From the NCBI GenBank assembly GCA_021825955.1, contig JAKAEH010000008.1, positions 1-10,447 on the forward strand: a stretch of DNA of 10,447 bases. Reading direction: 5' to 3'. Source of the stretch: a bacterium. GTDB lineage: Bacteria; Patescibacteria; Microgenomatia; Levybacterales; UBA12049. The notes below the pieces were generated by a model. It was not told where the DNA came from. It did not search any database and saw nothing but the letters and a program-made list of their open reading frames with translations. Positions 5,837 to 9,252 of the stretch are shown piece by piece; within the stretch, counting starts at the first letter, position 1, and each line of letters opens with the position of its first letter. Both the position numbers and the translations under genes were made by a program.

Positions 5837-6526
5837 ATGATATCATATATTGTAGCTTTGGACAATATGGGAATTGTATTTGGCCTTATAATGTTGGTTA
5901 TCCTTGTTTTCTCCGCAATCTTGCATGAAGTGGCACATGGCTTTGTAGCAGACCGCCTTGGTGACCCAACCGCTAGGCTTATGGGGAGACTTACTCTTAA
6001 TCCAAGAAAACACATCGACCCTTTTATGAGCATTGCTCTTCCTCTTATTTTAATTCTTTCCGGTTCTCCTGTTATTTTCGGCGCCGCAAAACCGGTTCCT
6101 GTTGATCCATTTAATTTAAAAGAGGGACGGAAAGATATTGCTATTGTTTCTCTCGTAGGACCTTTAACTAATGTACTAATTGCCGTTTCTGCCGCGCTTA
6201 TTTTAAAAGGACTAAGGATATCTGTACCAATGTTTGCAGGGTCCTCTTATGATTTTATATTTTTTATTATTTACCCGATTCTTCTAACAATTACCCAAAT
6301 AAATCTTCTCCTGGCTATTTTTAATCTTTTGCCCATACCGCCTCTTGACGGTTCAAAGATTTTTGCTTTGATTTTGCCGGAAAAAGAGGCAAATATTTAT
6401 CTTTCTTTGGGTTCAATCGGAATTTTTATAATCTTTTTTCTTTTGATGTTTCCAATTGGAGGATTTTCACTGGGTGGTTTAATCTTTAATCTTCTCTCCT
6501 TCTCCGAAAAACTGCTAGGATTATAA
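5837..6526 (+). CDS. Site-2 protease family (M50) membrane protein
   Basis: A 229-residue, strongly hydrophobic protein of the compact M50 group without PDZ or CBS domains. The zinc-binding HEVAH is at 30-34 in the first long membrane segment; the third ligand is in NLLPIPPLDGSK, Asp161, in a later segment. The order of the two motifs and the length fit small site-2 proteases (SpoIVFB/YwhC-like), which cut substrates within the membrane. The substrate is unknown. A second in-frame ATG at 5867 (MGIVFGLIML) lies right before the first membrane helix and is an alternative start; neither has a Shine-Dalgarno sequence. Its upstream region is the R2 repeat. Confidence 0.9.
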   Translation: MISYIVALDNMGIVFGLIMLVILVFSAILHEVAHGFVADRLGDPTARLMGRLTLNPRKHIDPFMSIALPLILILSGSPVIFGAAKPVPVDPFNLKEGRKDIAIVSLVGPLTNVLIAVSAALILKGLRISVPMFAGSSYDFIFFIIYPILLTITQINLLLAIFNLLPIPPLDGSKIFALILPEKEANIYLSLGSIGIFIIFFLLMFPIGGFSLGGLIFNLLSFSEKLLGL

Positions 6527-6532
6527 ACCCTC

Positions 6533-6568
6533 TTGTCAAGTTGACAATATTATTTATAATGATATACT
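6533..6568 (+). promoter_or_regulatory. Strong promoter with palindromic operator-like site
   Basis: TTGACA (6541-6546), a 16-nt spacer, then TATACT (6563-6568). The perfect palindrome TTGTCAA-G-TTGACAA at 6533-6547 covers the -35 box, where a repressor could bind. Transcription is expected to start near 6575. It drives the structured RNA, not a protein gene. Confidence 0.7.
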
Positions 6569-6574
6569 TTAATT

Positions 6575-6795
6575 GTTCTTTGGTATTAGAGGTAATTGCC
6601 AGATTTTCCTCTACAATTTCACTGGATTTTAGGTAACCTCAAGATTTTGAGGCGACAGGGCGAATTACCAATGTTCCCGTGAGGAGCAGGTTGAGTCCAC
6701 CTAGTTAAAGGTCCGGGGAAACGCCAATTGCACTCGATACCGAAGACGTACTTATTCTTATTTATATCCTCTAATGAGGCTTAGCCTCTTTATAT
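6575..6795 (+). ncRNA. Unidentified structured non-coding RNA
   Basis: No protein gene is seen here. A near-consensus promoter and a terminator-like hairpin bracket about 200 nt with nested helices: a 10-bp closing stem 6577-6586 with 6737-6746 (one G-U pair); a second stem 6591-6600 with 6659-6669 (10 bp, one bulged G); a hairpin CCTCAA-GATT-TTGAGG at 6637-6652; and TTCCC 6674-6678 with GGGAA 6716-6720. The closed ends and branched interior fit a stable structural RNA. I cannot recognise hallmark sequences of tmRNA, RNase P RNA, SRP RNA or 6S RNA, so a divergent or new family is possible. Confidence 0.55.
6776..6794 (+). terminator. Weak intrinsic terminator after the structured RNA
   Basis: GAGGC-TTA-GCCTC followed by TTTATAT. 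The stem has only 5 bp and the T-run is broken, so termination may be partial, with read-through into the tRNA-Thr gene. Confidence 0.45.
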
Positions 6796-6808
6796 ATTCC
6801 GTTTAATT

Positions 6809-6817
6809 TGCTAAAAT
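6809..6817 (+). promoter_or_regulatory. Extended -10 before the split tRNA-Thr(TGT)
   Basis: TGC-TAAAAT ends 8 nt before the first tRNA base at 6826. The TG dinucleotide makes it an extended -10; no good -35 is seen. Confidence 0.45.
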
Positions 6818-6860
6818 CGTGTTGTGCCGACTTAGCTCAGTGGTAGAGCAGCTGTTTTGT

Positions 6861-7022
6861 CCCAGCACTATCTTGCCAAATTTTCCAAATTTGGCTTAGA
6901 AGTGCGGGATCCCGTAAAACTAAGCTTGCCGAGATAGCTCAGTGGTAGAGCAGCTGTTTTGTAAACAGCAGGCCCAGGGTTCGAATCCCTGTCTCGGCTC
7001 AGCAAGCAAGTTTTACTGGGAT
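6861..7022 (+). other. Intron-like insert 1, carrying a complete tRNA-Thr
   Basis: Inserted after anticodon base 36 (boundary ambiguous by one T). Helix 1 is the closed hairpin 6860-6909: TCCC with GGGA, GCACT with AGTGC, and a 9-bp GCCAAATTT/AAATTTGGC tip. Helix 2 pairs 6910-6921 with 7009-7021 (TCCC/GGGA and GTAAAACT/AGTTTTAC, one bulged T), continues with GCTT/AAGC, and encloses the embedded tRNA. The first 55 nt are nearly identical to insert 2. No group I core or terminal G is present, so the class is unknown. Confidence 0.75.
6928..6999 (+). tRNA. tRNA-Thr(TGT), complete, embedded in insert 1
   Basis: A full 72-nt cloverleaf: acceptor GCCGAGA/TCTCGGC, D-arm GCTC/GAGC, anticodon stem GCTGT/ACAGC with loop TTTGTAA (anticodon TGT, reading ACA), T-arm CAGGG-TTCGAAT-CCCTG and discriminator T. 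CCA is not encoded (CAG follows). Apart from the acceptor stem it is almost identical to the 5' half of the host gene around it. Confidence 0.93.
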
Positions 7023-7069
7023 AAACAGCGGGTCGGTCCGATGTTCATCGGACCAGTCAGATCACTATA

Positions 7070-7098
7070 TTGAAACGCGTATATCAATCACGTATAAT
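7070..7098 (+). promoter_or_regulatory. Promoter for the endonuclease-like gene
   Basis: TTGAAA (7070-7075), a 17-nt spacer, then a perfect TATAAT (7093-7098). The GTG start is 6 nt further on, so the transcript would be leaderless. Confidence 0.65.
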
Positions 7099-7104
7099 TA
7101 AATC

Positions 7105-7479
7105 GTGAATACTAAACGAAAAGGAAGCATAGCGGTTGGAATTGCAATCGCACATTTTATAGGAAAGGGAGCGACTGTTCTCTTACCTGTAGGTGATTGT
7201 GATTTATACGATTTGGTTATAGATTAAAATGACAGTATAAAGAAAATACAGTGTAAATACATAAGTGACAAGGAGCCAAATGGAGGGTATAATGTTGATC
7301 TAAGAACATTTGGCGGATATAGAGATAAAACTTATTATCTAAGATACAAAAAGGGTGATTTTGATTTACTTTTTGTTTATTGCAGCAATGAACAAAAATA
7401 TTTAATTCCTGCAGAAAAAATTATAGATAAAGCGCATCTTGTTCTTGGAGCAAAGAGTTGGAATGAATTTAAATGTTAA
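7105..7479 (+). pseudogene. Group I intron-associated PD-(D/E)XK homing endonuclease-like protein, interrupted by a stop
   Basis: From GTG at 7105 the frame runs 40 codons, meets TAA at 7225-7227, and continues open for 83 more codons to TAA at 7477-7479. The parts read as one protein. K-x-K-G-x-I-A-V at 4-11 is followed by the active-site strand GDCDLYDLVID (30-40), and after the stop comes KKIQCK, which supplies the Q-x-K of the PD-(D/E)XK motif. The tail (DFDLLFVYCSNEQKYLIPAEKI) resembles the I-Ssp6803I-like group, whose founding member sits in a cyanobacterial tRNA-fMet intron. The stop removes the catalytic lysine, so the gene is probably dead or carries a recent point mutation. It ends at the base before tRNA-Tyr. 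Family assignment is from motif recall. Confidence 0.75.
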
Positions 7480-7563
7480 GCTGGGTTCGCGTAGCGGCAA
7501 TCGCATCTGGCTGTAGACCAGACGTCCGAAAGGGCTGCGGGGGTTCGAGTCCCTCACCCAGCA
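7480..7563 (+). tRNA. tRNA-Tyr(GTA)
   Basis: 84-nt class II tRNA: acceptor GCTGGGT/ACCCAGC, anticodon stem TCTGG/CCAGA with loop CTGTAGA (anticodon GTA), a long variable arm at about 7523-7538, T-arm GGGGG-TTCGAGT-CCCTC and discriminator A. CCA is not encoded (CTA follows). It begins at the base after the endonuclease reading frame's stop, so its promoter must lie in or before that gene. Confidence 0.95.
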
Positions 7564-7621
7564 CTACGTCCAAACGTGGCTGGCTTGCCGGCTTGGCTCA
7601 GTGGTAGAGCAAGTCATTGGT

Positions 7622-7787
7622 CCCAGCACTATCTTGCCAAATTTCATAGAATTTGGCTTAGAAGTGCGGGATCCCGTAGTTCTATGCCGACATAGTTTAG
7701 TGGTAAAACGATTCATTGGTAATGAATTGAGTATGGGTTCGATTCCCATTGTCGGCTCAAAAAAGGTCGGCAAGAAACTACTGGGAT
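7622..7787 (+). other. Intron-like insert 2, carrying a complete tRNA-Thr
   Basis: 166 nt at the same anticodon-loop site as insert 1. Helix 1 hairpin 7621-7671 has the same stems as in insert 1 (TCCC/GGGA, GCACT/AGTGC, GCCAAATT/AATTTGGC) but a different tip loop (TCATAG). Helix 2 pairs 7672-7681 with 7776-7786 (TCCC/GGGA and GTAGTT/AACTAC, one bulged T). Insert 1 uses different bases there (GTAAAACT/AGTTTTAC), so this helix is kept by compensating changes. It encloses the embedded tRNA. Confidence 0.8.
7686..7757 (+). tRNA. tRNA-Thr(GGT), complete, embedded in insert 2
   Basis: A full 72-nt cloverleaf: acceptor GCCGACA/TGTCGGC, D-arm GTTT/AAAC, anticodon stem ATTCA/TGAAT with loop TTGGTAA (anticodon GGT), T-arm ATGGG-TTCGATT-CCCAT and discriminator T; CCA is not encoded. 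It has the same anticodon as the host gene it interrupts but differs from it in every stem, so it is not a recent copy of that gene. Confidence 0.93.
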
Positions 7788-7857
7788 AATGACTAGATCG
7801 TGGGTTCGATTCCCACAGCCGGCTCAAATATTAGGGCTTCAATTTTGGAATAAATTC

Positions 7858-7866
7858 TGCTAGAAT
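7858..7866 (+). promoter_or_regulatory. Extended -10 for rpmG
   Basis: TGC-TAGAAT (7858-7866), 7 nt before the rpmG ATG, with no Shine-Dalgarno sequence between. This predicts leaderless or nearly leaderless transcription. Confidence 0.5.
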
Positions 7867-7873
7867 ATCGGAT

Positions 7874-8050
7874 ATGGCAAAAAAGGGAGAACACAGAATA
7901 AAAATAGGCTTGGTTTGTCCAGCTTGTAAAAACAGAAATTATATAACAACTAAGAATAAATTGAATACGGAAGCAAAATTAGTATTTAAAAAATTTTGTA
8001 AACATTGTCGAAAGATAACCGAACATAAAGAATCAGAAAAATTAAAATAA
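7874..8050 (+). CDS. rpmG: Ribosomal protein bL33, zinc-binding form
   Basis: 58-residue large-subunit ribosomal protein. It starts MAKKGEHRIKIGLVCPAC and has the family layout: CPAC at 15-18 and CKHC (about 43-46) as the zinc CxxC pairs, with NYITTKNK between. Placement between tRNA-Thr and tRNA-Trp matches the common bacterial rpmG-trpT neighbourhood. Its last nine codons (EHKESEKLK, then stop) recur 107 nt downstream as EHKESKKLK plus stop, with a structured sequence between the copies, so the 3' end looks like the site of an insertion that restored the reading frame's end. Confidence 0.95.
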   Translation: MAKKGEHRIKIGLVCPACKNRNYITTKNKLNTEAKLVFKKFCKHCRKITEHKESEKLK

Positions 8051-8157
8051 TTTGAGATCCTGCTAAGGTCGCTCTTTAAGCCGTGTACGGACAGTACTGA
8101 AAAGGCTTAAAGGAAGACGTGCGGGACGAACATAAAGAAAGCAAAAAACTTAAATAG
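8020..8157 (+). repeat. Duplicated rpmG 3' end flanking a structured insert
   Basis: CGAACATAAAGAA occurs at 8020-8032 and 8127-8139, and each copy continues into a similar A-rich end and a stop. Between them is a 9-bp stem CTTTAAGCC (8074-8082) with GGCTTAAAG (8104-8112), plus TCCTGC near 8058-8063 that can pair with GCGGGA at 8121-8126. The repeat unit is 107 nt. Confidence 0.7.
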
Positions 8158-8176
8158 CTCCTCAAGTTCTACGCAA

Positions 8177-8205
8177 TTGATTGAAACAATATTTCCAAGT
8201 ATAAT
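8177..8205 (+). promoter_or_regulatory. Promoter for the tRNA-Trp transcript
   Basis: TTGATT (8177-8182), a 17-nt spacer, then TATAAT (8200-8205). Start expected near 8212, giving a leader of about 110 nt before tRNA-Trp. Confidence 0.55.
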
Positions 8206-8215
8206 AAGGTGTATA

Positions 8216-8320
8216 GGGACGTGGTGAAATGGAACGGAGCATAGCGAGTTCGCCTGCTTGACAGGCGAGGAACAGCAGTCTCTCCCGCTAAAGCGGGATC
8301 GCGAAGTTCTAAGCAGTCCA
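8216..8320 (+). other. tRNA-like remnant invaded by palindromic repeat, tRNA-Trp leader
   Basis: The leader opens GGGACGTGGTGAAATGG, which looks like the acceptor and D-arm beginning of a leucine- or valine-type tRNA, directly after the promoter. No matching anticodon arm, T-arm or ACGTCCC strand follows. Instead there are palindromes: TCGCCTG/CAGGCGA (about 8250-8268) and CCCGC-TAAA-GCGGG (about 8284-8297). I infer a tRNA gene destroyed by repeat insertion; it may just be leader sequence. Confidence 0.35.
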
Positions 8321-8323
8321 AAT

Positions 8324-8394
8324 AGGCCAGTAGTTAAATGGTATAACTGAGGTCTCCAAAACCTCTGTTGGGGGTTCGATTCCCTCCTGGCCTG
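8324..8394 (+). tRNA. tRNA-Trp(CCA)
   Basis: 71-nt tRNA: acceptor AGGCCAG/CTGGCCT, D-arm GTT/AAC, anticodon stem GAGGT/ACCTC with loop CTCCAAA (anticodon CCA), T-arm GGGGG-TTCGATT-CCCTC and discriminator G73, the bacterial tryptophan identity base. CC follows but the A of CCA does not. Confidence 0.95.
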
Positions 8395-8439
8395 CCGAAA
8401 ACTTTATTTTATCTCTCAAAAGGCATACACTAATTGTGT

Positions 8440-9252
8440 ATGGCTGTAAGGCACTATCATCATCATTACCATTTTAGTTACGAAACATCCAAAAAACGTC
8501 ACTTCTCTTCTCTCTTAATAGTTGTTTCAATCGTTACTCTTATTTTTGTTATTCTTTTTAGACTGTTAACCCCGGAGCAAGCAATTGATCTTAAACAATT
8601 ATCTCCCGAAGACATCGCGTTTGCTTCATTTAATACTTTATTCAGACTTTTTATTTCTTATGTTTTTGCTTTAGTCTTGTCAGTTCCAATCGCACTTTTT
8701 ATTACCAAAAGCAAGAAAACCGAAAGAATAATGCTTCCTATAACCGATATTTTCCAATCTGTTCCCATTTTGGCTTTTTTTCCAATTATAGTTTTGGCGT
8801 TTATAAAACTACAGATGATAGAAGGAGCGGTAATTTTTATCCTCTTTATGGCAATGCTCTGGAACTTAGTTTTTAGCATGATTGGCGGATTAAAGACTAT
8901 TCCCGAGGACATTTTGTTTGCAGCGCAGATTTATAAAATAAAAGGTCTTAGGAAACTTTGGTACATAACTATTCCTGCTATTTTTCCCTATATTATAACC
9001 GGCTCGCTTCTTGCCTGGGCACAGGGCTGGAGCCTTTTAATTGTTGCCGAGGCTTTGCATAGCTATATTCCAAACGGAACCATAGCCCAAGATCCGTTGG
9101 GGCTTGGCAGTTTACTAGTTAATGCCTTCTACAACGGGCAAAATTCGGTTTTCCTTGCTTCCCTTGCCGTAATGATTCTCTTGATAACTTTTATTAACTT
9201 TTTTGTTTGGCAAAAACTATTGCATTTGGCAGAAAGGTATAAATTTGACTAA
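8440..9252 (+). CDS. ABC transporter permease, NitT/TauT (SsuC/ThiX-like) type
   Basis: Membrane subunit of a substrate-binding-protein-dependent importer, 270 residues from the ATG at 8440 (a TTG two codons earlier is also possible). After a His-rich start (HYHHHYH) there is one membrane helix, then the BPD-type core with about five more. The coupling loop that docks on the ATPase is the stretch EDILFAAQIYKIKGLRKLW followed by ITIPAIFPYIITG; the EAA-loop glycine falls in KGLRK. The family carries nitrate, sulfonates/taurine or thiamine precursors; substrate cannot be told. A TACACT at 8426-8431 may be a -10 close to the ATG. The ATPase gene overlaps its end. No binding-protein gene is in the window. 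Confidence 0.85.
   Translation: MAVRHYHHHYHFSYETSKKRHFSSLLIVVSIVTLIFVILFRLLTPEQAIDLKQLSPEDIAFASFNTLFRLFISYVFALVLSVPIALFITKSKKTERIMLPITDIFQSVPILAFFPIIVLAFIKLQMIEGAVIFILFMAMLWNLVFSMIGGLKTIPEDILFAAQIYKIKGLRKLWYITIPAIFPYIITGSLLAWAQGWSLLIVAEALHSYIPNGTIAQDPLGLGSLLVNAFYNGQNSVFLASLAVMILLITFINFFVWQKLLHLAERYKFD

Follow-up and report, generated by a model that had tools for sequence, protein, structure and literature searches.

The anticodon region of tRNA genes is a site of insertion for bacterial group I introns, and an intron of archaeal tRNA-Trp holds a nested C/D box RNA, as stated in one account (PMC4090602). Integrative elements, such as phages and ICEs, target tRNA genes as well and leave fragments of them by partial duplication (PMC9897764), and Rickettsia palindromic elements (RPEs), like the element described here, insert inside genes (PMC10969869). 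We analysed a stretch of 10,447 nucleotides, referred to as the window, from a bacterium of the Levybacterales (contig JAKAEH010000008.1, assembly GCA_021825955.1), in which an earlier note had recognised a complete tRNA-Thr(GGT) nested in an intron-like insert of another tRNA-Thr(GGT). The nesting of these same-anticodon tRNAs is real, with the complete gene lying within an insert in the anticodon loop of the other one. Among the matches listed for open-access PMC full text, we found no paper describing nested same-anticodon or same-isotype tRNAs or elements of this kind, in line with what the earlier note had supposed. We consider it likely that the insert is a member of a palindromic family, located in or beside tRNA genes and probably mobile, that breaks a tRNA gene and supplies a substitute of the same isotype.

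Nested tRNA-Thr genes and an eroded remnant in the window

The insert that separates the halves of the outer tRNA-Thr(GGT) is made up of two hairpins, HP1 and HP2, and the inner tRNA is located at the apex of the latter:

7587 to 7620, + strand: 5' half of the outer tRNA-Thr(GGT) (joined halves named tRNA-Thr(GGT) by ARAGORN)
7621 to 7671, + strand: HP1 of the element, TCCCAG...GCGGGA (model R1, partly built from it, 88.5 bits)
7672 to 7685, + strand: left arm of HP2, TCCCGTAGTTCTAT (inverted match to R1)
7686 to 7757, + strand: inner complete tRNA-Thr(GGT), at the apex of HP2 (RF00005, 75.7 bits; also found by ARAGORN)
7765 to 7786, + strand: right arm of HP2, GGTCGGCAAGAAACTACTGGGA, and end of the element (R1 model and sequence)
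7787 to 7824, + strand: 3' half of the outer tRNA-Thr(GGT) (joined halves named by ARAGORN)

The insert noticed earlier thus exists, but its cut, previously drawn between exons at 7587-7621 and 7788-7824, shifts by one base to 7621-7786, because the ends are TCCC and GGGA throughout the family; the T can be assigned to either side. HP1 (7621-7671) folds with a z of -6.31 and belongs to a covarying stem (alignment of 55 HP1 sequences), and HP2 is an inverted HP1, with R1 matching the minus strand at 7658-7786 (53.7 bits, E 7e-13). The nest in its entirety (7587-7827) folds far better than its shuffles (z -6.98). Its inner tRNA-Thr(GGT) recurs letter by letter in the genomes G070 and G071 (loci L016 and L024/L046), which share their order with G001, the Levybacteria record MFOV01000005.1; on this basis, a close relative of Candidatus Levybacteria (Microgenomates, CPR) is the likely source of the window.

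A second nest, missed by the earlier note, lies 761 bases upstream, where a tRNA-Thr(TGT) is interrupted in its anticodon loop by an insert (6860-7021) that contains a complete tRNA-Thr(TGT). A run of 22 nt near the beginning of the insert is identical at both nests of the window (shuffle mean 0.00 in 200 shuffles with up to 3 mismatches allowed), and the stretch 6827-7066 likewise folds far better than shuffles (z -6.24):

6826 to 6859, + strand: 5' half of the outer tRNA-Thr(TGT) (sequence; joined halves named Thr(TGT) by ARAGORN)
6860 to 6909, + strand: HP1 of the first element (R1, partly built from it, 89.0 bits)
6910 to 6927, + strand: left arm of HP2 of the first element (sequence and fold)
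6928 to 6999, + strand: inner complete tRNA-Thr(TGT) (RF00005, 76.5 bits)
7000 to 7021, + strand: right arm of HP2 of the first element, ending in CTGGGA (sequence and fold)
7022 to 7063, + strand: 3' half of the outer tRNA-Thr(TGT) (sequence; GGTCCGATGTTCATCGGACC replaces the T-arm and the acceptor is mispaired)

With Rfam, this outer tRNA-Thr(TGT) scores 19.8 bits at 6826-6896, which is under the gathering score. A third copy, also missed by the earlier note and eroded, precedes a tRNA-Trp at 8283-8319, and its match to R1 is weak (19.5 bits, E 0.0039, 8283-8312):

8215 to 8282, + strand: eroded 5' half of an outer tRNA-Trp (by eye; another palindrome fills the D-loop)
8283 to 8319, + strand: third element, consisting of a shrunken HP1 (TCCCGCTAAAGCGGGA) and the left arm of HP2 (by eye; right end and 3' half are gone)
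8324 to 8394, + strand: complete tRNA-Trp(CCA) (RF00005, 65.6 bits)

As this tRNA-Trp(CCA) sits behind a left arm of HP2 in the same manner as the tRNAs of L003, L007, L027 and L054, it would formerly have been an inner tRNA. In total, the window holds two nests and one remnant.

Several further features were observed in and around these clusters. Dead outer tRNAs contain other GC-rich palindromes (e.g., CCTGCCTGCCGGCAGGCAGG), which occupy their D- and T-loops or lie close to their anticodon arm (L016, L024, L025, L032, L038, L080, and 8233-8275 of the window). Between the two nests of the window (7096-7479) lies a broken gene for a PD-(D/E)XK endonuclease (PF11645) in two pieces (E 2.6e-9 and 3.9e-10), of which an open relative, 66% identical, is present in L044 (3592-3972), in the genome of L027. 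Stand-alone GIY-YIG genes are located near nested clusters in L068 (985-1266; PF01541) and, as detected by tblastn, in L018, L019, L024 and L026. Upstream of the Thr cluster, a stretch that looks similar by eye in the window (6600-6770) and in L020 (upstream of 1460) reads GGGGAAACRCCAAYT, followed by CTCGRTAYC and AAGAC; it has no Rfam match in the window and is perhaps an undescribed structured RNA.

Extent, anatomy and insertion sites of the element family

The family that we examined comprises 62 elements from 41 genomes, the genome of the window being one of them. When 84,980 species genomes were scanned for the pattern, seven loci emerged, five of which are real (L002 and L005, apparently located in coding sequence, were dropped). 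R1 matched 24 of the 82 genomes of the Levybacteria order, the order of G001, two of them by chance, and it also matched 31 of 372 genomes of a class sample, 5 of 27 genomes from a second order and 5 of 379 genomes of a phylum sample; these samples overlap. A complete tRNA is present within or close to every one of the 55 hits of R1 with E ≤ 1e-6. Among 12 weaker hits, the seven with a complete tRNA were kept (G012, G013b, G144b, G161, G224a2, G331, G352) and the five for which none was found were dropped as chance hits (L036, L037, L092, L093, L095; E 3e-5 to 0.03), so that the presence of a complete tRNA inside, or at most about 240 nt from the start of, each of the 62 elements is in part a matter of selection. 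Second-hairpin hits of elements already counted were left out of the 62, and three more copies that were read in G562 stand outside this number. No strong copy was found away from tRNA genes, strong copies being located in or beside them. Viral contigs gave no match to two exact patterns, and a BLAST search against phages matched 155 records, none over more than 80% of the query; among the 20 listed records, tRNA genes account for 10 matches and a repressor gene for the other 10. All five carriers that have names are MAGs.

When an element is counted as nested if a complete tRNA begins 30 to 120 nt behind its start, 51 of the 62 are nested. Their inner tRNAs represent nine anticodons and seven isotypes: Thr (TGT 17, GGT 7, CGT 7), Cys (12), Trp (4), and Ala, Pro, Val and Glu with one each. 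The tRNA occupies one constant position of the element in 48 of the 62 and the other hairpin in three more (G004b, G275c, G105), and the right arm has since been lost in some nests (L007, L024, L031). Eight of the 11 non-nested elements are tRNA-free hairpins with a complete tRNA adjoining; G006 and G012 are disrupted, and G224a2 reads as the outer shell of a double nest.

Each element consists of two hairpins that stand head to head and are mutually inverted around a centre that reads CGGGATCCCG, with outer ends that read TCCCAG inward from either side (TCCCAG / CTGGGA). HP1 has the layout TCCC-A-GNNNN-A-TCT-T-stem...stem-TT-AGA-NNNNC-GGGA. HP2 is an inverted HP1, the stem of which is capped in the usual nests by the inner tRNA in place of the apical loop. 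R1 matches HP2 on the opposite strand across the tRNA in three nested copies only (window, L016, L020), and it likewise matches HP2 of the tRNA-free L023 as an inverted HP1; in the remaining nested copies, HP2 was read by eye. In L070, the stem arms GTACATTTTGT/ACAAAATGTAC directly continue the inner acceptor stem. In L057 (1564-1671) and in the window (7686-7774), moreover, the right arm of HP2 complements the inner tRNA's 5' acceptor strand, which consequently has two possible partners.

The stem of HP1 shows covariation. In the above-mentioned alignment, prepared with MAFFT, 92.7% of the cells of the 12 pairs of the proximal stem are paired, double-sided changes occupy 74 cells (20.8 in shuffles, none of 500 reaching 74), covariation reaches 0.318 against at most 0.097 with the partners slid, and eight pairs carry a double-sided change against 4.7 in shuffles (1 of 500 as high). 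A weaker measure of covariation, the number of further pair types, is 21 against 18.5 in shuffles (43 of 500 as high). Double-sided changes are also present in six of the eight pairs of the middle stem, and four single hairpins fold with z values of -5.0 to -6.4. This covariation is no proof of function, as template switching during replication can perfect palindromes too.

The apex of HP1 contains an extended -10-like box (TGnTAnnAT) in 33 of the 62 elements against 1.2 in mononucleotide shuffles. It is present in 31 of 48 sense-nested elements and in none of 11 others (Fisher p 8e-5), or in 2 of 14 others if three unclear elements are counted (Fisher p 0.0016), with related sequences inflating both sets of counts. 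By its sequence, the box could possibly be a built-in promoter of the inner tRNA. Together with the strong structural constraint on HP1, it speaks for a non-mobile regulatory or promoter cassette that is selected for the expression of tRNA-Thr, -Cys or -Trp and of which the outer tRNA is a by-product. We regard such a cassette as very unlikely: its presence is patchy (24/82, 31/372 and 5/379 genomes), isotypes, loops and orientations differ between the copies, the box is absent from both nests of the window, and in L007, L024 and L031 the arms are eroded and the inner tRNA is retained.

The usual insertion site is the anticodon loop (e.g., TTTG|TAA, TTGG|TAA, TTTG|CAG, CTC|CAA). Two elements are inserted in a D-loop (AG|TTGG; Pro in L070, Val in L041) and five in a T-loop (GTT|CRA and similar), the latter adjoining complete His, Gly, Val, Leu and Leu tRNAs; the eroded sites of G352 and G006 were left out of this assignment. 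The isotype of the broken tRNA is unreadable in the T-loop cases because the remnant comprises the T-stem and the 3' end only. At 42 hand-checked ends, the target duplication amounts to 0 nt in 38 and to 1 nt in four. A 7-mer junction test was positive in 29 of 48 elements and the four bases on the left correspond to the inner anticodon region in 38 of 48, where the misses of both tests include lost 3' halves and wrong ends.

Decay of the outer genes and probable origin of the nests

In each of the 51 nests, we joined the outer halves by trying every GGGA-like end behind the inner tRNA. ARAGORN assigned the inner anticodon to the joined gene in 18 nests and something else in 5, and it left 28 unrecognised; the program is lenient, given that the outer Thr(TGT) of the window passes despite its abnormal T-arm and acceptor. 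The earlier note had called the insert intron-like and had suggested that, if both tRNAs mature, a single transcript gives rise to two isodecoders. On this view, the insert would be a tRNA intron of a new kind, whose hairpins bring the halves together so that a ribozyme or an enzyme excises the insert, the inner tRNA is set free from it and both tRNAs mature. The exact and structured ends of the insert are in keeping with this proposal, as are the 18 joined genes with the inner anticodon, both nests of the window included, and splicing is conceivable at the Thr(GGT) locus of the window since its outer gene is still intact.

We nevertheless hold such an intron to be quite unlikely. Covariance models for group I and group II introns gave no match at the gathering cut-off in the window and none up to E 5 over 6500-8450. 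In group I introns, U ends the 5' exon and G ends the intron; the insert ends in A (a cut moved by one base would make this a T). PF01974, the tRNA splicing endonuclease of the archaeal type, was detected in none of the 22 carrier genomes searched (out of 40 behind the 62 loci), the control matching 4 of 14 named genomes, all of them archaea, and the RtcB ligase was detected in 2 of the 22. An intron spliced by proteins calls for an intact outer tRNA that is the sole copy, whereas only 18 of the 51 outer genes are recognised with the inner anticodon and a complete tRNA is located inside or near all 62 elements (weak tRNA-less hits having been dropped), as is expected if the outer gene is dispensable. 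Insertions are also found in D-loops and T-loops, and the five T-loop elements reside in tRNA fragments without a recognisable anticodon arm, where splicing could not help. An intron of the group I, group II or archaeal type was therefore dropped as the main reading on the evidence from the models, the endonuclease and the outer tRNAs. Splicing is an unlikely explanation of the nests, and the two suggestions of the earlier note find no support in these data.

The outer genes of close relatives are decayed. In G070 and G071, which carry the inner Thr(GGT) of the window, the outer gene is unrecognised: palindromes lie within its D-loop and T-arm in G070, and in G071 there is a palindrome in the D-loop and the 3' half is missing. 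In G002, the sole genome checked for further copies, ARAGORN was applied to 43 tRNA matches and left two of the weakest unnamed, in an assembly that may be incomplete; among the others, Trp, Thr(GGT) and Thr(CGT) are represented by their inner copies alone. A second gene for any of these affected tRNAs was not found there, and the outer Trp is unrecognised. The decay of the outer genes, in conjunction with these sole inner copies, makes it very likely that the inner tRNA is the working gene of the nest.

The two Thr genes of the cluster Thr(TGT)-Tyr-Thr(GGT) each have nested and plain alleles in different species, and one and the same tRNA type may be inner, outer or plain, depending on the species. 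G084 has an inner Thr(TGT) that matches the plain gene of L016 at 100% identity, and the Thr(TGT) type found inside the nests of G024, G035 and G037 shares 97% with the outer Thr(TGT) of G068, which encloses an inner tRNA of another type. For the inner Thr(GGT) of the window, identity is 95% to the plain gene of L021 and 76% to its own outer gene. In the tRNA-Pro(CGG) of L070 (G224), inner and outer gene are identical at 74 of 74 positions, and this copy consequently derives from the target itself or from a very near relative. G394 comes next, with 67 of 73 positions, and the rest of the 22 joined cases share about 60-82%, three of them having been joined at wrong or doubtful ends. In L069 (1902-2300), a fragment of an outer tRNA-Thr is followed by an element and a broken tRNA-Thr, and these by another element and a complete tRNA-Thr(TGT); by eye, and with an eroded outer shell and a weak model match (E 4.8e-4), this appears to be a nest within a nest.

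These comparisons also bear on the idea that tRNA genes were duplicated and that a palindromic repeat with a liking for hairpin loops invaded the spare copy, the nests being due to such loops as hot spots in general and the element having no role in the replacement. The eight tRNA-free elements with a complete tRNA adjoining and none inside would be accounted for in this manner, as would the other GC-rich palindromes that likewise fill D- and T-loops of dead outer tRNAs. However, the tRNA is found at the same position of the element in 48 of 62 cases and in the other hairpin in three more, the extended -10 box is concentrated in sense-nested elements (31/48 versus 0/11 or 2/14), and inner and outer genes have mostly diverged to a degree that is unlike fresh tandem copies, with G394 and the tRNA-Pro of G224 as exceptions. 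We therefore judge duplication followed by invasion of the spare copy to be rather improbable.

The reading of the insert as a member of a palindromic and likely mobile family is supported by the two-hairpin anatomy, by the strong copies that are confined to loops, by the lack of target duplication, by the intact inner tRNA with the anticodon of the joined outer gene in 18 of 51 nests, by the decayed outer genes, by the nested and plain alleles of one cluster, and by the nested Pro pair without any difference. The gene-less element would enter the loop of a tRNA gene, thereby breaking it, and would bring or make a complete tRNA of the same isotype that takes over the function. To judge from the sequences, the element itself may move, presumably as a folded single strand, since the pairing of the hairpins is kept as their letters change, and it would join to the tRNA loop without duplicating the target. 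The nests might form by fold-back copying, as suggested by the right arm of HP2 that complements the first bases of the inner tRNA (e.g., GCCGTGAT/ATCACGGC in L057). The inner tRNA would be matured as usual by RNase P and 3' nucleases, and the outer halves would be discarded and would then erode.

A mobilising gene was not found. No parent transposon with the same ends was seen in the loci examined, and clustering of their ORFs revealed no shared transposase among the 40 largest clusters. The Y1 transposase (PF01797) is present in 18 of 22 carriers and in 31 of 60 non-carriers of one order, a weak association in which kinship is uncorrected (Fisher p 0.021). A homing endonuclease was considered as the mover and rejected; genes of the PF11645 and GIY-YIG types occur nearby, but neither recurs with the element in the loci examined. 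That no strong copy lies away from tRNA genes is unusual for a transposon, and the presence or absence of the element was seen at the level of species, with no empty site at the level of strains.

On a more far-reaching reading, which we offer tentatively, a folded DNA devoid of genes enters loops of essential single-copy tRNA genes, copies or carries a whole tRNA into its hairpin, and drives waves of replacement that leave nested tRNA genes behind. tRNA genes are held to be among the most stable genes; in these bacteria with small genomes, a tiny element that brings the replacement along seems to overwrite them time and again. Cleave-and-rescue drives are engineered systems, and if our reading is true, the element would be their natural counterpart and a new source of tRNA isodecoder turnover. 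It raises the puzzle by which route an exact copy of a tRNA reaches a hairpin loop. For annotation, the nests hold a warning, as their outer halves are missed or mistaken for the exons of an intron-bearing gene.

The element among known palindromic repeats, islands and introns

Like a MITE, the element is short and non-coding and has terminal inverted repeats (TCCCAG / CTGGGA); it differs from a MITE in its target site, which shows 0 nt of duplication at 38 of 42 ends and 1 nt at four. With REP/BIME sequences, which are associated with RAYT (Y1) transposases, and RPEs, compared here by their descriptions, it shares short, non-coding, palindromic and dispersed copies, and BIMEs are pairs of inverted hairpins with bulges, as is the element. 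In contrast to these repeats, it lacks target duplication, its strong copies are located only in or beside tRNA genes, and it carries a complete tRNA that would replace the host gene.

Integrative elements that target tRNA genes resemble it in their target and in the tRNA fragments that they leave. They carry genes, however, and recombine site-specifically, whereby their own 3' part makes the tRNA whole again; an integrase and a duplicated att core are characteristic of them. Here, about 95 nt of hairpins and a second whole tRNA are inserted into three different loops, amounting to about 160-200 nt with the inner tRNA, and we found neither a gene nor an integrase inside nor a duplicated core.

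A bacterial group I intron shares the insertion in the anticodon region, whereas the element matches no intron model, has the wrong ends, measures about 95 nt without the tRNA, is also inserted in D- and T-loops, and mostly leaves an outer tRNA that is unrecognised. Archaeal tRNA introns offer a parallel in that a functional RNA is nested in a tRNA insert; they are spliced by a protein endonuclease, which was not found here, and yield the outer tRNA as the product, whereas the nested RNA described here is a second tRNA.

Palindromic repeats have some features in common with the element, as have tRNA-targeting islands and tRNA introns. To our knowledge, no known system unites loop-specific insertion, the lack of target duplication and an enclosed complete tRNA as a substitute.
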